Below are positions 32,696 to 40,996 of a stretch of DNA of 64,000 nt, in pieces. The stretch is taken from NCBI GenBank assembly GCA_017935365.1, contig JAGBHT010000032.1, positions 62,001 to 126,000 on the forward strand. Reading direction: 5' to 3'. The number at the start of each line of letters is the position of its first letter. The first letter of the stretch is position 1. The notes beneath the pieces were generated by a model. The model did not search any database, was not told the origin of the DNA, and saw nothing but the letters and a program-made list of their open reading frames with translations. The position numbers and the translations under genes are program-made. Source of the DNA: Ruminiclostridium sp. (GTDB lineage Bacteria; Bacillota; Clostridia; Oscillospirales; Ruminococcaceae).

Positions 32696-33280
32696 ATGCC
32701 ACCCAGGGCAAAATATACAAGAGAAGAGATAACCGAAATAGCGCTCGGAATAGTTGCCGAGAGCGGTGTTGAATCGCTGAATGCAAGAAGTCTTGCAGAG
32801 GCTATGGGAACATCGACACGACCTATCTTTACAGCGTTCAGAAATATGGAGGAGCTTGAACAGTGCGTCCGTGAATCGGCTATGGAAGTGTTCGGACAGT
32901 ATGCGGAAAAGGAAACTCCGGATATGCCGGCATTCAAGCAGGTCGGCATTCAGATGATTACTTTTGCAAAGGAAAAGCCGAAGCTGTTCAGACTTCTTTT
33001 TATGAAGGAACAGGATCATACTTTCAATTTCGAGGAAATGTTTTCCTCTATGCTCGGTGTTACGGCTGACAAGTGCATTGAGTATATAATGAACGATTAC
33101 TCGCTTTCAAAAGAGGACGCTATGACTTTGTTCAGGCACGTCTGGATATTCACCTACGGTATAGGTGTATTGCTTTCGTCCAACATCTGTCTGTTCAGCG
33201 AAAATGAGATTTCGGATATGCTGAGCGTTCAGTTCAGAAGTATGCTGATTATGATAAAATCCTCACATGCGGCAAAGTAA
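32696..33280 (+). CDS. TetR/AcrR-family transcriptional regulator
   Basis: A 194-aa repressor-type regulator. The N-terminal helix-turn-helix (residues about 8-52) reads TREEITEIALGIVAESG, LNARSLAEAMG, TSTRPIFTAFRNMEEL. The C-terminal ligand-binding part (about 70-190) is helical and includes a WIFTYGIGVLLSS helix. GAGGTGA precedes the ATG at 32696. It is divergent from the DUF4234 membrane gene, a likely target. Its ligand is unknown. Confidence 0.88.
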   Translation: MPPRAKYTREEITEIALGIVAESGVESLNARSLAEAMGTSTRPIFTAFRNMEELEQCVRESAMEVFGQYAEKETPDMPAFKQVGIQMITFAKEKPKLFRLLFMKEQDHTFNFEEMFSSMLGVTADKCIEYIMNDYSLSKEDAMTLFRHVWIFTYGIGVLLSSNICLFSENEISDMLSVQFRSMLIMIKSSHAAK

Positions 33281-33293
33281 GATCCAATATACA

Positions 33294-33329
33294 TCCCGAT
33301 CTGTTTTATGGCAGGTCGGGAATTTTTTT
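33294..33329 (+). terminator. Terminator of the tetR-family gene
   Basis: Arms CCCGATCTG/CAGGTCGGG with one G-U pair, followed by AATTTTTTT. Confidence 0.8.
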
Positions 33330-33535
33330 ATCCCTTTTTCCAAACAGTTTTCAATCCATACATAAATAATGTAGCAAACGGTGGTTTAATATAGTTGAAA
33401 AACGAACATTGCAATGTGTTTTCAAGCGGTTTTCAAAGTTCTTTTCCAAGTCTTTTTGCGTGGAAAAGGGCAGAAGAAAAAATGCAGTCAACAGTATATA
33501 ATAAAGTTATATAATTACAGATTTCGGGAGATGTC

Positions 33536-33808
33536 ATGGATAAGAATAACAAATCGGAATCGCTTAACGGTGTGTATGGGACGATATGTGAAATTATCGG
33601 CTTTGAAAATACCGTTAAGTTGTACAATCAGATGAAGGGCAGTCAGATAAATTTCCCCACACGGCTTTATTCTAAGGAATATGTCGCACTGGAGGCGGAA
33701 AAAATCTATGACGGCACATCTGATTCGCTTAATAAGATAGCCGCCGAGTATAACTATTCGGAGAGGACTATAAGAAAACTTCTGAAAAAGAAAAACGAGG
33801 AGGAATAA
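33536..33808 (+). CDS. Small HTH protein (CD3324/Mor-like)
   Basis: A 90-aa DNA-binding protein. Residues about 10-40 (YGTICEIIGFENTVKLYNQMKG) resemble the N-terminal part of CD3324/Mor-type activators. A C-terminal helix-turn-helix reads NKIAAEYNYSERTIRKLLKKK. It ends two bases before the next gene's start (TAAGAATG) and probably regulates the membrane genes that follow. The 200 bases upstream have no convincing promoter. Confidence 0.7.
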   Translation: MDKNNKSESLNGVYGTICEIIGFENTVKLYNQMKGSQINFPTRLYSKEYVALEAEKIYDGTSDSLNKIAAEYNYSERTIRKLLKKKNEEE

Positions 33809-33810
33809 GA

Positions 33811-34866
33811 ATGGAACAGGGAAGTTCGAAGAAGAACAACATAATCGTACTGTGTGTTGTTATTGCAGTAATAGCTGTCGCACTGGTTGCCTATTTTGTA
33901 ATAAGCGGTCAGAAGGATAACGGTCAGCCTGCGGTCAGCGCAACAATGGAACTGAACACCGTCAACATTTACGGTGCATGGTACAAGAAAGCAGGTGACA
34001 GCACATACGAGCTGAGATTCAAGGACAACAAGGAGCTGTCATATAAGCAGACGGCGGCAGACGGCACGGTCACGGCACAATCCGACGAGGGTACATACGA
34101 TATTGCGGATGGAAAGCTGATACTTACGATCGTTGCCGGCGGTCAGACTTACAGTGATACTTGTACCGCAAACGTAAACGAAAAGCAGATGTCAATCGTT
34201 GCAGACGCTAACGGCAGTGGACTTTTCGGCGGTATCTACGACAAGGACGGAGCGGATTATTCCGTACCCGATGTTTCCCAAAACGAGCCGACCGAAGTCC
34301 CCAATACCACAACGGTACCGCCTCAGACAACAGCGGTCACAACAGCCGCACCGGAAACGACAACTACAACGGCTTCTGTGACCGAAGCCCCGGAGAGCAA
34401 GCCGGCGGAGAACGGTAAAATAGAATTGCCGGAAAGCATAGCAAAATATTTCAATACCGATTATGAGGATTCGGAGTTCAACGGGCTGTATTTGGAGGAT
34501 GAAAAGGCAGGTTATGTTGGATATGCCGGTTACTATACAGATAATAAAGAGGTGCTGTATCAGTGCAAATACGATAAAAGCGGTTATGGTCAGGGCAAAG
34601 CGTTGAAAGTGGTATGCGAAGCAAAAGAACTTTTCCCGATGTTTGATGCCGACAAATCAAAATACAGCGATTTAACCGCTTATATGATGAACAATTTCGG
34701 TGACAAATGCAAAACAAGTGATGATACGGGAAATGTATATTTCTATCAGGATCTGAATTATGTCATTCTGCTGTACGTAGTGGAAACCGATGAGGTTGAT
34801 CCGCCGATAAGTAACATATTGGTAACGATATGCGACATAAACGATTATTACAGGGAACGTCAATAA
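33811..34866 (+). CDS. Single-pass membrane protein with lipocalin-like domain and Thr-rich linker
   Basis: A 351-aa protein with one N-terminal transmembrane helix (IIVLCVVIAVIAVALVAYFV, residues about 11-30) and the rest outside. Residues about 45-145 have a DUF5640/lipocalin-like pattern (IYGAWYKKAGDSTYELRFKD, GTYDIADGKLILTIV). A Thr/Pro-rich linker (about 165-205, TTTVPPQTTAVTTAAPETTT) leads to a C-terminal domain (about 215-351) with GLYLEDEKAGYVGYAGYY. AGGAGG precedes the ATG. It is in an operon with the HTH gene and the SHOCT protein. The function is unknown. Confidence 0.65.
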   Translation: MEQGSSKKNNIIVLCVVIAVIAVALVAYFVISGQKDNGQPAVSATMELNTVNIYGAWYKKAGDSTYELRFKDNKELSYKQTAADGTVTAQSDEGTYDIADGKLILTIVAGGQTYSDTCTANVNEKQMSIVADANGSGLFGGIYDKDGADYSVPDVSQNEPTEVPNTTTVPPQTTAVTTAAPETTTTTASVTEAPESKPAENGKIELPESIAKYFNTDYEDSEFNGLYLEDEKAGYVGYAGYYTDNKEVLYQCKYDKSGYGQGKALKVVCEAKELFPMFDADKSKYSDLTAYMMNNFGDKCKTSDDTGNVYFYQDLNYVILLYVVETDEVDPPISNILVTICDINDYYRERQ

Positions 34867-34882
34867 ACAACGAGGTGTAATT

Positions 34883-35710
34883 ATGAAAATGAACAAGGAA
34901 TTTATACTTAAAAACCTTATGGGAATTATATGTGCCGTGATAATTCTTGCACTGTTTCTTCCCTTTATGTCGGTAAAGGCGGAGGTTTCTGTCGGAGGAT
35001 TCGGCGGCGGAAGCGCCGATCAGTCGATGAACGGCTTTTCGCTTGTGACGGACGGCGGAATCTTCGGCTTTGCGTTTATACTTTGCCTTGCGGCAGTAGC
35101 GGCAAGCTGTTATATCCCTCAGCTGAAGCCTTTCAGAAAGATTATATCCGCTATAGGCTCGGTTGCAGGTATTGTCTGCCTGTTCATAGCACCCGGTTCA
35201 GCGGCATCGGCAGTGAATGCGGCGGCAGGCGGAGCGACCGCAGGCACGGGAGTTTCCGCAAAGGTAGAGCTTAACTATCTGATAGGATTCTGGATAATAC
35301 TTATTCTAATGCTCGCCCTTATAGCGATGTCGGTAATACAGTTCTTAGGGCTTAAGGGCAACAAGGTATTTGACGCAGTAAACTCAGCCGAAGATGAAAA
35401 CGGCACTGCGGGCGTATCTCTGCCGTCAATAAGCGCTGACGGAATAAAGTCGGCGATAGGTTCAGTGAATGCCGACAGCATAAAGAATATGGCACAGAAT
35501 GCGGCAGGCGGTATTGCGGGTGTTGCTGAAAATCTCAAGGATAAAGCGTCACAGGCGGCACAGAATATCCAGAACCATGCACCCGCCAAAAAGGAAGATC
35601 CGCAGGCGGTTATGGAGCAGATAAAACAGCTTCACGAAATGAAAGAAAACGGTATACTTACGGAAGAAGAATTTGCAGAAAAGAAGAAGGAGTTCCTTGA
35701 ACGGCTGTAA
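34883..35710 (+). CDS. Membrane protein with C-terminal SHOCT domain
   Basis: A 275-aa protein with about four hydrophobic segments: GIICAVIILALFLPFMSV near the start, GIFGFAFILCLAAVAASCY, IGSVAGIVCLFIAPGSAAS and IGFWIILILMLALIAMSVI. A helical, Ala-rich stretch follows (SIKNMAQNAAGGIAGVAENL). The last 35 residues form a SHOCT motif, QLHEMKENGILTEEEFAEKK, a short module found at the ends of many bacterial membrane and surface proteins. It follows the lipocalin-like gene by 16 nt, in the same operon. Confidence 0.78.
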   Translation: MKMNKEFILKNLMGIICAVIILALFLPFMSVKAEVSVGGFGGGSADQSMNGFSLVTDGGIFGFAFILCLAAVAASCYIPQLKPFRKIISAIGSVAGIVCLFIAPGSAASAVNAAAGGATAGTGVSAKVELNYLIGFWIILILMLALIAMSVIQFLGLKGNKVFDAVNSAEDENGTAGVSLPSISADGIKSAIGSVNADSIKNMAQNAAGGIAGVAENLKDKASQAAQNIQNHAPAKKEDPQAVMEQIKQLHEMKENGILTEEEFAEKKKEFLERL

Positions 35711-35714
35711 GCGA

Positions 35715-35743
35715 TTGAATTCCTGACATGAATAGTGTATAAT
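35715..35743 (+). promoter_or_regulatory. Promoter of the WYL regulator
   Basis: TTGAAT (35715-35720) and TATAAT (35738-35743), 17-nt spacer. Confidence 0.7.
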
Positions 35744-35782
35744 TATATATATACTATGATATACACAAACGGAGGAACGGCA

Positions 35783-36757
35783 ATGGGAAAAACGTCAAAC
35801 TGCCTTAAAATGCTTCAGATCTTAAGCTCAGGCAGAGTGTATAAAGGTCAGGAGCTTGCGGAAATCCTTGAAACAAACGTCCGTAATATAGCCGAGTACC
35901 GCACAGAGCTTGAAATGGCAGGTTATTATATAGAGGGTATCCCCGGCAAATACGGCGGATATCGTCTGATAACGCAGAGCGTGATCCCTACGGTAAGGCT
36001 CAATGAAGCTGAACAGCGTGCGTTATCCTCCGGAGCGGAATATCTTAAGAGCCGCAACGATTTTCCTTACTCAAGCGATTATGAAAAAGCGATGGGAAAG
36101 GTCTTTGCGGCGGTAAAGCACGAACAGCCGCAGGAAATATCCGTTGCCAACCGTTTTCCGCTTGCCGTTGACGAGCAGGAGCTTAGCAGACGGTATGATA
36201 CGGTGGCGCAGTGCATCGCTCACAGAAAAGAGCTTGAGATGGATTATCTGTCGCTGTCAAACAAGGTGTCGCACCGCAGCTTCGATCCGTATAAGCTGTT
36301 TATGTATAACAATGCGTGGTTTATGCTGGGGTATGATAAAAAGTCATACGAGATCCGCTATTTCAAGCTGAGCCGTATTCAGTCGATGGTTGTCACGGAA
36401 AACCGCTTCACAGTTCTTGCGACATACAAGGAAAGCGACTATCTTGATGAGTTCGGTATGAAAAAGAACGGCGAATGGTATGAGATAGTTATGCTGCTGC
36501 ACGGCAGATATGCGATGCTCGCCCGTGAACGTATCTACGGCAGAGATCAGACAGTTACGCCGATAGACGAAGATACAACAGAGCTTCGTTGCACAATGCA
36601 GAACGAGGAGAATATCATGTGCTTTGTGATGGGGTTCGGAAGTCACTGTGAGGTCGTTTCACCGCAGTGGTTGAAAGACAGGGTGAAAGGCGAGGCGGAG
36701 AATATATTAAAGCAATATAACTGCTGTCATTGTAAACAAAAACAGCTTGAGAAATAA
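35783..36757 (+). CDS. HTH-WYL domain transcriptional regulator
   Basis: A 324-aa regulator of the YafY/DeoR-like HTH plus WYL class. The N-terminal winged helix (residues about 1-65) has VYKGQELAEILETNVRNIAEY and GYYIEGIPGKYGGYRL. The WYL domain (about 140-220) has RKELEMDYLS, FDPYKLFMYNNAWFMLGYD and IRYFKLSRIQSM. The C-terminal WCX-like extension follows. WYL domains bind nucleic-acid ligands or nucleotides in known cases, and such regulators often control phage-defence operons (BrxR, CapW). GGAGG precedes the ATG. It lies 126 nt upstream of the four-gene cassette on the same strand. Confidence 0.88.
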   Translation: MGKTSNCLKMLQILSSGRVYKGQELAEILETNVRNIAEYRTELEMAGYYIEGIPGKYGGYRLITQSVIPTVRLNEAEQRALSSGAEYLKSRNDFPYSSDYEKAMGKVFAAVKHEQPQEISVANRFPLAVDEQELSRRYDTVAQCIAHRKELEMDYLSLSNKVSHRSFDPYKLFMYNNAWFMLGYDKKSYEIRYFKLSRIQSMVVTENRFTVLATYKESDYLDEFGMKKNGEWYEIVMLLHGRYAMLARERIYGRDQTVTPIDEDTTELRCTMQNEENIMCFVMGFGSHCEVVSPQWLKDRVKGEAENILKQYNCCHCKQKQLEK

Positions 36758-36776
36758 GTATATATTGTATGAATTG

Positions 36777-36816
36777 TCGAAAAATAATTGACATTCGATT
36801 AAAAAAGTGATATTAT
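36777..36816 (+). promoter_or_regulatory. Promoter of the four-gene cassette with overlapping dyad
   Basis: TTGACA (36788-36793) and TATTAT (36811-36816), 17-nt spacer. An inverted repeat TCGAA-N12-TTCGA (36777-36781, 36794-36798) brackets the -35 box and is a candidate operator for the adjacent WYL regulator. Confidence 0.65.
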
Positions 36817-36883
36817 TTAATTTAGCAAAAAGAATAATGCAATTCAATATTCTCAAAAGCATTACATATCGTGAGGCGTATTA

Positions 36884-38449
36884 ATGAGTGAAAAGTCTAA
36901 AGTTCAGAAAATTGCAGAAAACGGAGCAATAACAGGTATTGCAGGTGACGTTGGAAATCGTTACGGAAGTGCAATCAAAGAACATCTTGTAGCATATAAC
37001 GGTATAGATAACGAAAACGGAATTAAACTCCATGACAGCCTTAAGTCTATATCACAGCACAAGATAAATCCGGAACATAAATATTCCAATATGAAGCAGC
37101 GTGCCGGATATGCCGCAGAGGTCAAGGAAACTGCAAGAGTAAACGCTGAAAGAGCTATAAAGGGTGATCCTACAAGAAAAGTCCGTACCGACGACCTCGG
37201 GAAAGTAAACGATCAGCGGGTAGATCATTATGATGTTGATAAAAACGGTCAGATAATCGAGGGAAGCGGCTCACAGATGAAGTTTGTCGGCAAAACTCCC
37301 GAAGAAGCTTTCGATAAACTCAGATCAAAAAAATATGACAAGTATTTTGAATCGGATAATAAAATGGTTGTTCCGTCGGATCAATATGACGGAATAATAA
37401 AAGCCGCAGACAAGCAGCTTGAAAAGCTCCATAAACAACTGGAGTCACAGACCGAAAAAGGCAATCCGGAACAGATAGAAAAGATAAAACAGCAGATCGA
37501 AAAATGCGAAAAAATTAAAAAGAATGTGCGCAAGAGTACGGTTTCAACAAAAGGTGCCGGATCTGCGGCAGCGCATCCTTTGCTTTCTACTGCCGGAGAT
37601 GTTATTAAGGTTGCAAATCGTGCGGGTTTGCAGTCGGCGGCAATAGGCGCCGGTGTCGGCGGTACGGTTTCGCTTGTGAAGAATATTGTTGCATGTATAA
37701 AAGGCGATAAGGAATCGGAAGAAGCGGCGAAAGATGTTGCAAAGGATACCGCAGGAGCGGCAGGAACAGCATATGTCTCAGGCGCAGGCGGTGCGCTGAT
37801 AAAAGGTTTTGCCCAGAATTCAAGTAAAGCCGCAATTCGTAATTTTGCAAATTCCCCGCTTAATCTTCCGGGTACAATTGCAACTTTCACTGTAAACTCG
37901 GCAAAAAAGATTTATGCATATTTCGATGGTAAAATCACCGGTGAAGAGTGTGTAAATCAATTAAAGGAAGACGGTATAGGCACTATCGGCGCTATGTACG
38001 GCAGTTTTTATGCAGTCGAATGTGTCGGTACAACTGCTTTAGCCGGAGCCGGACTTAAGGTTGCAAATTTATTTGCCGGTATGGTGGGAGGCATGATAGG
38101 CTATGCGCTCGCCTCTGCTTGCTATAGCGTTCTCTCCTCAAGCATTAAAGATGCCAGACTTGCACGGGAAGAACGTATACGTGTCGAGCAGGAATGCGAA
38201 CAGCACATAGCACTTATAAAAGCCTATCGCAGTCAATTGAACGATATGATCAACCAATATCTCAAGGATAAGATGGAAGTGTTTAACGATTCGTTTGACG
38301 CAATCAAGAATTCTCTTTGTATAGGAGATATTGACGGGTTTATAGCAGGTTCAAACAAGATAACAGAGGCGCTGGGCGGGCAAGTGCAATATAGCGACAA
38401 AAAAGGATTTGACACATTGATGAACAGTAATAAAGCCTTTGAGCTTTAA
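36884..38449 (+). CDS. Cassette gene A: 521-aa protein with coiled coil and glycine-rich hydrophobic segments
   Basis: No characterised family is recognised. Residues 1-165 are soluble and include GYAAEVKETARVNAERAI and GSGSQMKFVGKTPEEAFDKL. Residues about 168-217 form a charged coiled coil. Residues about 225-420 alternate Gly/Ala-rich hydrophobic stretches, including AAIGAGVGGTVSLVKNIVA, AGTAYVSGAGGALIKGF and FAGMVGGMIGYALASACY. A basic helical tail begins ARLAREERIRVEQECEQHI. The hydrophobic stretches could insert into a membrane. GTGAGG precedes the ATG at 36884. It is the first gene of a co-directional cassette with genes B, C and D. A role in stress response or defence is inferred from organisation only. 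Confidence 0.75.
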   Translation: MSEKSKVQKIAENGAITGIAGDVGNRYGSAIKEHLVAYNGIDNENGIKLHDSLKSISQHKINPEHKYSNMKQRAGYAAEVKETARVNAERAIKGDPTRKVRTDDLGKVNDQRVDHYDVDKNGQIIEGSGSQMKFVGKTPEEAFDKLRSKKYDKYFESDNKMVVPSDQYDGIIKAADKQLEKLHKQLESQTEKGNPEQIEKIKQQIEKCEKIKKNVRKSTVSTKGAGSAAAHPLLSTAGDVIKVANRAGLQSAAIGAGVGGTVSLVKNIVACIKGDKESEEAAKDVAKDTAGAAGTAYVSGAGGALIKGFAQNSSKAAIRNFANSPLNLPGTIATFTVNSAKKIYAYFDGKITGEECVNQLKEDGIGTIGAMYGSFYAVECVGTTALAGAGLKVANLFAGMVGGMIGYALASACYSVLSSSIKDARLAREERIRVEQECEQHIALIKAYRSQLNDMINQYLKDKMEVFNDSFDAIKNSLCIGDIDGFIAGSNKITEALGGQVQYSDKKGFDTLMNSNKAFEL

Positions 38450-38473
38450 ATAAAAAAACGGAGGAGAGTAAAA

Positions 38474-39649
38474 ATGTCGGTTTATCTTTATGAAGAAGAT
38501 AAAATACAGATCAAGCTGTATTACTACTTTCTGAGAGCTGACGGCAAGGTCAGTGATGCAGAACGTGAGTGGCTGGAGAGGTTTGCGCACGAAAATGATA
38601 TTGATATGGACGATGTCAATAAGCTTATCCGGGAGTGCGAAAATGAACTGAAGGATATTGATGAGGATGATATCATTTCTAAAATGGCGATTATCGCACG
38701 TTTGCTTAGTAAAAATATATCCGGAATAAACAGCTATATCGGTAAGGTGATATGGAATCTTGTAGATTACGGCGGTTGCGACGGTGAATTTTCGGATGAA
38801 GAGAGCGTAATTATCGGTTTTCTGACTGATTTTCTCGGAATCAAAGGAGATAAGTTTGATAAGCTGTGCGAACTTCATTCAAAAGCACAAGCTCTTGAAG
38901 AAAGCAAAGACGCATTAAAAAAAGACCGTAGTAAATCTTACGATGAAATAACGGTAGCTTTACAAGAAACAGATAAAAAAATTGCAGTGTGTCAGAATAT
39001 AGTTTCAGGTATAATTGAAAAAATCAGTGAAACTCAAGTCAATATAGATGACGGATTTGAATTTTCTTCCTATTATTCATCTGAAACAGAAAAGAAAGAC
39101 AAGCTCAAGCTTTTTTACAGCTTTATTATGGCTGACGGAGATGGGGCTGACAGCGAAATTGAGAAGATAGAGTCAATAGCATCTGCTATGGAAATACATC
39201 CCCATGATATAGAAGCTTTTCTAATTAAATATGGCAGATACTATGATGATTTTCTGCGTGATGAAGACTATTGGTGGCGCTCAATGATTTTATGTGCCAG
39301 AGCTCTTGTACTTTTTGAAGAACACAGTGGAATAATTAACGATGAAGTTCAATCTGCGCGCATTATATGGACGCTTGTCAGTCTGGCATATGCAGACGAA
39401 GATTATTCGACCGATGAAGAAATAATATTAACATTCTGCAAAGCCTTCCTCGATATTGATGATGTTCTTTTCTCTGAAATGACAGATACAGCGGAAACCA
39501 TGCTTATGCTTGAAAAGAAAAAGGACTGGTTCAAGCAATCCGGACTGAGTTATGACGAAGTTTCGGCACAGTTGAATATAATCAATAGTCAGATTGAAAG
39601 CTTAGCATCAGATATAGAGTTTTCTGTTTCTGAGGCGGATATAGCGTAA
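38474..39649 (+). CDS. Cassette gene B: TerB-like protein with four acidic helical motifs
   Basis: A 391-aa soluble all-alpha protein. Four motifs of the TerB type, aromatic or small residue then (A/G)DG or (A/C)DE followed by an acidic turn and E-rich helix, occur near residues 20, 105, 220 and 310: RADGKVSDAEREWLERFA, GGCDGEFSDEESVIIGFL, MADGDGADSEIEKIESIA and YADEDYSTDEEIILTFC. This suggests two TerB-like domains separated by a coiled coil (about 140-185). TerB proteins bind metal through such acidic residues and are linked to tellurite and stress systems. AGGAGAG lies 7 nt before the ATG. It lies 24 nt after gene A and 13 nt before gene C. Confidence 0.75.
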   Translation: MSVYLYEEDKIQIKLYYYFLRADGKVSDAEREWLERFAHENDIDMDDVNKLIRECENELKDIDEDDIISKMAIIARLLSKNISGINSYIGKVIWNLVDYGGCDGEFSDEESVIIGFLTDFLGIKGDKFDKLCELHSKAQALEESKDALKKDRSKSYDEITVALQETDKKIAVCQNIVSGIIEKISETQVNIDDGFEFSSYYSSETEKKDKLKLFYSFIMADGDGADSEIEKIESIASAMEIHPHDIEAFLIKYGRYYDDFLRDEDYWWRSMILCARALVLFEEHSGIINDEVQSARIIWTLVSLAYADEDYSTDEEIILTFCKAFLDIDDVLFSEMTDTAETMLMLEKKKDWFKQSGLSYDEVSAQLNIINSQIESLASDIEFSVSEADIA

Positions 39650-39662
39650 AGGAGAGATAAAT

Positions 39663-40676
39663 ATGCCGATACCATTTTTACTTATTGCCGGAATAGGCGC
39701 CGCCGCACTCGGTGTAGGTAAGTCTATAAAAGCCGGTATAGATCAGCATGACGCCAATGACACAAACGATGTGGCACAGAGAATCATAGACAGATCGACT
39801 GAAGCGATGAACACGTCAAGAGAAGAAAGCGGACGTGCTCTGGCGGCTCTGGGACAGGCTAAGCTTGACATACTTGAAAAAGATATCAAGTCGTTTGTAG
39901 CCGCTTTTGAACAGCTACATAATGTTAACCTCAAGGATTCTCAGGGGTTGCAGGAAATAGATAAGTTCCATACAGATGTACAAGATATCAGCGAGCTTAA
40001 GGAAATGCAGATGAAGGCGTCAAGCGTAGCCGGAGGTCTTGCGGGCGGAGCAGCCGCCGGTGCTCTTACGGCAATCGGCGCATACGGTGCTACAATGACC
40101 TTTGCCTACGCTTCAACGGGAACGGCAATAGCAACTCTCAGCGGAGCTGCCGCAACAAACGCAACGCTTGCGTTCCTCGGAGGCGGTTCGCTTGCCGCAG
40201 GCGGTCTGGGTATTGCCGGAGGAACTGCGGTACTCGGCGGACTTATTGCAGGACCCGCTCTTGCCATAATGGGCTTTGTAGTTGGGGCAAAAGCGAGTGC
40301 AAACCGTGATGCTGCATACGAAAATCTGGCAAAAGCAAAGGAATACAGAGAAGAAATAACAACAGCGAGAGTTGCCTGCAAGGGTATACGAATGAGAGCT
40401 ACTATGTTCAAGAGATTACTTCTCAAGCTTGATACTGTATTTGCACCGCTTATTTCCCGTCTTGAAGAGATAATCAAAACGAGCGGAACCGATTACAGCG
40501 CATTTACCGAAGAAGAACAGAATGTAGTTGCAGCATCTATGACGATGGCGAAAGCGATAAAATCTGTTCTTGATACGCCTATCCTTAATGAAGACGGCGG
40601 TCTTACACCGGAATCGCTGACTACTGCGGAGAATATAAACGCAATCTTTGAGTCTGATGAATCAGAAGATGAATAA
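39663..40676 (+). CDS. Cassette gene C: 337-aa glycine-zipper membrane protein
   Basis: The N-terminus is hydrophobic (PIPFLLIAGIGAAALGVGKS). A helical region (about 35-115) follows. The centre (about 120-220) is a long Gly/Ala/Thr-rich hydrophobic block containing ASTGTAIATLSGAAATN, ATLAFLGGGSLAAGGLGIAG and GGLIAGPALAIMGFVVGAKA, which looks like packed glycine-zipper helices. A charged helical tail follows. Proteins with this block recur in bacteria but have no assigned function that I know. The block could form a pore or membrane anchor. AAAGGAGAG precedes the ATG. Its end overlaps the start of gene D. Confidence 0.75.
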   Translation: MPIPFLLIAGIGAAALGVGKSIKAGIDQHDANDTNDVAQRIIDRSTEAMNTSREESGRALAALGQAKLDILEKDIKSFVAAFEQLHNVNLKDSQGLQEIDKFHTDVQDISELKEMQMKASSVAGGLAGGAAAGALTAIGAYGATMTFAYASTGTAIATLSGAAATNATLAFLGGGSLAAGGLGIAGGTAVLGGLIAGPALAIMGFVVGAKASANRDAAYENLAKAKEYREEITTARVACKGIRMRATMFKRLLLKLDTVFAPLISRLEEIIKTSGTDYSAFTEEEQNVVAASMTMAKAIKSVLDTPILNEDGGLTPESLTTAENINAIFESDESEDE

Positions 40677-40941
40677 TGAAGATGTCCACTTTCCTTGTAC
40701 CGGTTGCGGTGAGTGCTGCAGACATATAAACCGTGTTGAACAGCTTGCCGTATACGACCGTGGCGACGGAGTCTGCATATATCTTTCCGGAAATCTTTGC
40801 AGTATATATAAAGACCGCCCTGAAATATGCCGTGTTGATTATATGTATGAAAAAGTTTTCAGCAATTATATGTCAAGAGAAGATTATTATGCGGCAAATC
40901 TTGCAGTCTGCCGTAAACTGAGGGAAGACCGGAATCATTGA
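40669..40941 (+). CDS. Cassette gene D: YkgJ-family cysteine-cluster protein
   Basis: A 90-aa protein of the YkgJ/UPF0153 family of predicted zinc- or iron-binding proteins. The signature FPCTGCGECCRHI is at residues about 8-20, with further Cys in LCSIYKDRPEICR and AVCRK. The start is uncertain: ATG 40669 overlaps gene C's stop by 8 bases, ATG 40657 is also possible, and neither has a strong ribosome site, so translation is probably coupled to gene C. YkgJ proteins are poorly understood; a metal-dependent modification role is conjecture. Confidence 0.85.
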   Translation: MNNEDVHFPCTGCGECCRHINRVEQLAVYDRGDGVCIYLSGNLCSIYKDRPEICRVDYMYEKVFSNYMSREDYYAANLAVCRKLREDRNH

Positions 40942-40960
40942 TGTAAATGAAAAAACGACA

Positions 40961-40996
40961 ATCACCCGATGCATTTTAGCATCGGGTGATTTTTTA
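40961..40996. terminator. Bidirectional terminator between the cassette and the GGDEF-EAL gene
   Basis: Arms ATCACCCGATGC/GCATCGGGTGAT (40961-40972, 40979-40990), an A-rich left flank and TTTTTT on the right. Confidence 0.9.

Follow-up and report, generated by a model that had tools for sequence, protein, structure and literature searches.

A PDC-M09-family gene cassette with a TerB gene and a modular A protein: a candidate membrane-linked defence system

The PDC entries of PADLOC are unpublished candidates (PMC11811056), and our literature search found neither a paper using the name PDC-M09 nor a phage experiment on it. Among catalogued systems that contain a TerB domain, Shango has a TerB-like protein and has been shown to protect against phage (PMC10250203), and a TerB domain is also recorded for Bunzi (PMC10952713). 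Dionysus, named in a review, is another TerB-containing defence system, for which we found no open paper giving the gene content. In the 64,000-nt stretch of DNA analysed here, from a gut Clostridia genome (Ruminiclostridium sp.) (the window, meaning the whole stretch), we found a four-gene cassette, A to D, in which C matched PDC-M09A (2.5e-31) and, in the same operon, A matched PDC-M09B; the latter match was weak (9.7e-6, over residues 48-361), and a family relative of A reached 1.8e-14. A sequence-only reading of this locus had called it a candidate undescribed stress or defence system with membrane effectors. The C-A pair was already in PADLOC as PDC-M09, so "undescribed" does not hold; the defence part gained from the matches of C and A to a candidate defence family, but A turned out to be more than a membrane effector, with a modular enzyme-like head on a constant helical and Gly-rich domain. 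We consider it moderately probable that the cassette, as a PDC-M09-family member, provides defence through a modular system linked to the membrane, in which the effector is the head of A.

Organisation of the cassette

All four genes lie on the + strand in the order A-B-C-D, with 24 nt between A and B, 13 nt between B and C, and a 20-nt overlap between C and D. They are preceded by the top-scoring promoter of the region, a sigma-70-type TTGACA-N17-TATTAT (36788-36816, +; 11 of 12 matches) with a TG before the -10 box (extended -10), and followed by a bidirectional intrinsic terminator with a 13-bp stem (40960-40991, +). The layout read from the sequence at the outset, with one promoter, four co-directional genes 13-24 nt apart or overlapping, and a strong terminator, agrees with these coordinates. 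Profile searches placed B and D in Pfam families and A and C in PADLOC, while no significant Pfam family was found for A or C.

Gene A (36884-38449, +) encodes 521 aa and is described below. Gene B (38474-39649, +; 391 aa) encodes a tandem TerB protein that matched PF05099 over three stretches (51 bits against a gathering cut-off of 24.4; 2.1e-13). Its four TerB-like acidic motifs, noticed earlier, are ADGKVSDAE, CDGEFSDEE, ADGDGADSE and ADEDYSTDEE, and we took them as two TerB domains; the TerB genes of other loci are mostly shorter. Membership of the TerB family suggests that B may be a metal-responsive sensor. In two Bacteroidota A-C loci that have no TerB gene (L030, 2268-3854; L066, 8001-9575), C is extended at its C-terminus by a domain of ~190 residues, for which there was no significant Pfam family and which could possibly replace B.

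Gene C (39663-40676, +; 337 aa), the hallmark gene of the cassette, encodes a Gly-rich helical protein whose alignment of 62 sequences has 19 invariant columns. In the predicted model, long helices at 8-83 and 210-274 flank a Gly/Ala-rich stretch at 126-209 that is itself unmodelled; the sequence-only reading gave ~100 residues of glycine-zipper sequence for C, and we count ~85 residues of Gly/Ala-rich sequence. Hydropathy suggests that C, like A, is membrane-associated. This layout recalls alpha-pore-forming proteins, and both AhlB and ClyA appeared among the structural matches of C; they did not, however, rise above unrelated helical proteins (ClyA 2wcd: Z 6.2, rmsd 5.6, with the hydrophobic part unmodelled), and C is at most a possible pore-former. 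Gene D (40657-40941, +; 94 aa from an ATG at 40657, with an alternative TTG at 40648 possible) is an optional member and, as first read, a YkgJ-type Cys-cluster protein, matching PF03692 (CxxCxxCC) at 30.4 bits against a gathering cut-off of 23 (6.4e-7).

The gene just upstream of the cassette (35780-36757, +) encodes a WYL/WCX protein, matching PF13280 (1.9e-14) and PF25583 (1.2e-11), and is a possible regulator of A to D. The dyad TCGAA-N12-TTCGA reported next to it does exist (36777-36798, no strand; 5-bp arms) and brackets the -35 box, but 29% of shuffles carried an equally long dyad round that box, so it is at chance level and gives no evidence of an operator. Inspection by eye of the sequence ahead of A at other loci linked to WYL saw no matching dyad, and the dyad was rejected as a WYL operator.

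The gene set across genomes

We searched 119 related genomes with C and found it in seven, own genome included; a search of its class with A added two genomes. An A-type gene lay beside C in all eight related genomes (six found via C, two via A), and at one locus (L020) the partner of C was a BnzB match. The C alignment was then scanned against 84,980 genomes, yielding at least 370 relatives, of which the best 80 loci were analysed; together with the eight loci and the window these make a C-anchored set of 89 loci, in which a few genomes are counted twice. In this set (best 80 of at least 370, plus eight, plus the window), A was present in 81 of 89 loci, B in 70 and D in 19. The usual order was A-B-C(-D), and the gaps ranged from a few bases to some tens. 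The best 80 loci of the at least 370 came from Bacillota, Bacteroidota, Spirochaetota, Actinomycetota, Campylobacterota, Pseudomonadota, Synergistota and Lentisphaerota, and copies were mostly on large, apparently chromosomal contigs.

Because these loci had been picked by C, we retested co-occurrence by searching with the A head instead, which added four genomes. C was adjacent in all four, and B and D were each present in three; gene orders in these A-anchored loci included B-A-C-D and WYL-A-C-D-B. That membership is kept despite the shuffled order is good evidence for a functional unit. Thus A-B-C, often with D and sometimes with WYL, is a recurring multi-phylum gene set, and neither a rare association of the four genes nor a match to a housekeeping system was found.

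In 10 of the 17 C-anchored loci with a nearby WYL, that gene immediately preceded A, against about two expected (17 x 84/718 slots). It also held this position in a further locus (L154), where the two genes overlap, and on an Azospirillum plasmid. At nine loci (L015, L016, L047, L070, L044, L057, L064, L067 and L045) a Cro/C1-type HTH gene of 73-94 residues stands directly ahead of an M48-type A in place of WYL, and the Cro-type HTH and WYL would be alternative regulators of the same cassette.

Constant domain and exchangeable heads of A

Alignment of the A proteins revealed a constant C-terminal domain of ~285 residues, common to proteins with all head types and ending in a conserved tail with EFDxLMxSD. 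In the window this domain (37559-38446, +) comprises helices, two Gly-rich hydrophobic segments, which were seen by hydropathy, and the tail EFDxLMxSDxxLxL. Profile comparison detected no homology between it and C. On two proteobacterial plasmids, near a type I restriction system and a Dnd-type methyltransferase, a mini-A of 131-144 aa consists only of the C-terminal helical tail and adjoins C (L137, 5554-5988; L138, 5444-5839); the pairing of the tail alone with C suggests that the tail is the part of A that works with C.

The heads that precede the constant domain, compared across the C-anchored loci, are unrelated to one another. The commonest class was BnzB-like (34 loci of the 89-locus set: best 80 of at least 370, plus eight, plus the window), followed by the head type of the window (30 loci of the same set, window included). 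With the BnzB-like class goes an M48 metallopeptidase domain, detected in 18 of the 40 heads that were scanned (1e-15 at best); the head of one locus has an LRAT domain (7.3e-5). Four loci have an HNH-like head (type III), assigned by the motif DHIxP...N...N alone, with no match in Pfam or among solved structures. A distinct head with an E...D...EIQAKF series at L022 (8881-10365, -) is, by motif only, probably another PD-(D/E)XK-like head, independent of that in the window. When head types were placed on the C tree, 14 changes were needed against a minimum of six, a rough count given several long branches and unsettled bootstrap values, and some BnzB/M48 head differences are possibly start-site or contig artefacts; the head type of the window was present in both main groups of the tree. 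The architecture of A is that of a modular effector: its C-terminal domain is constant, and the enzyme-like head in front of it has been swapped repeatedly in evolution.

In the window the head spans aa 1-233 (36884-37582, +), a PD-(D/E)XK-like fold followed by a coiled coil. The coiled coil and the Gly-rich hydrophobic segments had been noticed before; the part described as a soluble N-terminus forms a folded domain that carries an invariant set of nuclease-like residues. Four residues were invariant in 29 of 29 sequences where covered: E79 (37118-37120), D114 (37223-37225), Q131 (37274-37276) and K133 (37280-37282), all on the + strand. An AlphaFold2 model of the head from 29 sequences (pLDDT 91.8) predicted helix 63-92, strands 98-101, 115-118 and 130-132, helices 139-147/149-156 and strand 160-163, which is the helix-strand-strand-strand-helix-strand order of the PD-(D/E)XK core. 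The model also has an acidic residue at strand 2 (D114) and a (D/E/Q)-x-K motif at strand 3 (Q131-x-K133), with E79 in the first helix; we take these invariant residues to coincide with the active-site positions of the fold. Foldseek returned no significant match for the model, Pfam nuclease models did not match the head, and its profile found only coiled-coil or chance rows among solved-structure sequences. In a second structural alignment, the restriction enzyme BsaWI (4zsf) was the single row to cover the head core at length (model 60-221; 124 residues, Z 5.4, rmsd 3.9), a score too low to stand alone, and most other rows matched the coiled coil. Together, fold order and invariant residues indicate that the window head is likely PD-(D/E)XK-like.

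The diversity of heads also bears on what the cassette might do other than defend against phage. The strongest of the alternatives, though in our judgement an unlikely one, is an envelope- or metal-stress system, in which the TerB and YkgJ proteins would sense metal or membrane damage and A and C would repair or remodel the membrane with no phage role. TerB takes its name from tellurite stress, A and C are hydrophobic, and D is of a metal-binding type, but a single scaffold bearing heads of nuclease-like, protease and LRAT type suits an effector rather than a repair protein, and the distribution is patchy and spans many phyla. Still less probable is an antagonistic toxin module, with A as an interbacterial polymorphic toxin and B to D as carrier or immunity proteins. 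Swappable toxin-type heads would be expected of such a module, and the helix and Gly-rich layout of C, with AhlB and ClyA among its generic helical matches, would fit it as well. In classical polymorphic toxins, however, the variable domain is C-terminal, whereas that of A is N-terminal; moreover, no recurring head-specific immunity gene was seen in the operons, and B and C stay constant while the heads change. Modular defence, with the head of A as effector, remains the reading that we favour.

Genomic setting, proposed mechanism and known systems

We compared 136 cassette neighbours with 136 matched controls (at 1e-15). The extra defence matches were mostly to WYL, PD-T4-6 and JukA models, so that general enrichment near known defence genes, suggested as a check at the outset, was weak; it was set aside as main evidence, and the window itself contains no obvious defence island. 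C was found in 4 of 72,556 plasmid records and in none of 50,697 phage records, and viral contigs gave two partial matches. The plasmid copies included three annotated ones: one from Azospirillum, with WYL-A-C beside a DUF3320 gene, one from Vitreoscilla beside a type I restriction system, and one from Massilia, with YkgJ, beside a Dnd-associated methyltransferase.

In a sister genome (G014) the WYL gene is 97% identical, A to D are absent, and a near-identical terminator stem follows WYL within a few tens of bases. The cassette has thus been inserted or deleted where WYL and the terminator meet, and WYL can occur without it. Upstream of the cassette, a block of the window (32700-36720) encoding a TetR protein, a Mor-like HTH, a 351-aa lipocalin-like protein, a SHOCT membrane protein and WYL is 93-98% identical to the sister genome, while both flanks are ~74-81% identical; this may reflect recent transfer or strong constraint. 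Maintenance of mobile elements, with the cassette as an addiction-like or anti-plasmid module, would fit the plasmid copies, the patchy distribution and the clean absence from the sister genome, but the few plasmid records, the lack of phage records and the mostly large, apparently chromosomal contigs make it the least probable reading of all.

Defence is instead suggested by the PADLOC homology, the patchy distribution, the three plasmid copies beside restriction or defence-type genes, and the swapping of effectors. In our proposed mechanism, a core at the membrane would be built from C, whose long helices flank a Gly/Ala-zipper stretch, together with the constant domain of A; the TerB protein B would bind to this core as sensor or adaptor. 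Upon infection the exchangeable head of A would act, here as a PD-(D/E)XK-like nuclease and elsewhere as a peptidase or lipid enzyme. The nuclease would cleave the DNA of an incoming phage at the membrane or, in an abortive response, the DNA or RNA of the host. D, through a Cys cluster binding metal or Fe-S, might be an accessory that modifies or stabilises another component, and WYL would keep the operon repressed until needed, as would a Cro-type HTH where it takes the place of WYL.

If this is true, one conserved membrane/TerB module drives chemically different effectors, and the role of TerB in phage defence could be tested by comparing head types while B and C are constant. PDC-M09 and the BnzB of Bunzi, catalogued separately, would become linked, and the YkgJ and WYL genes would be accessory parts missed by a two-protein definition. 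More tentatively, and with less than even confidence, we suggest that PDC-M09 loci and loci of Bunzi type branch from a single large defence superfamily that crosses phyla. Its members would share a membrane sensor made of C and TerB and would differ in the effector plugged into a common slot (nuclease, HNH, M48 protease or LRAT lipid enzyme), a CBASS-like logic of swappable effectors on a membrane scaffold with no nucleotide messenger.

Compared with known systems, the cassette resembles Shango in TerB only, since the partners there, a DEAD/DEAH helicase and an ATPase, are both absent here. In Eleos (LeoA/LeoBC, dynamin-like), the C-terminal half of LeoBC is weakly matched by C in PADLOC (9.3e-6), but LeoA is a dynamin GTPase and no GTPase domain occurs in A to D. 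To the BnzB of Bunzi, A is related through its family, and the cassette would work in a similar way: members of the A family from comparable operons matched BnzB with values of 1e-43 to 1e-137. The BnzA model was matched in another genome (G004). At L017 (3933-5072, -), an LRR_5 (BspA-type) protein is the local BnzA-model match and lies downstream of an operon of BnzB-like A, D, C and TerB. Nevertheless, C is an extra hallmark gene relative to Bunzi, and we did not class the cassette as Bunzi because A of the window had no match to the BnzB model at E<=1 and BnzA (PDLC03833) had no match in the same genome. The PDC-M09 models comprise two proteins, whereas here and at most loci a TerB gene lies in between, often accompanied by YkgJ and WYL genes. 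Thus, the cassette belongs to PDC-M09 and has further genes that recur with it. Three features seem new: the modularity of A, the regular presence of a TerB gene as third component, and the recurrence of YkgJ and WYL as accessories.
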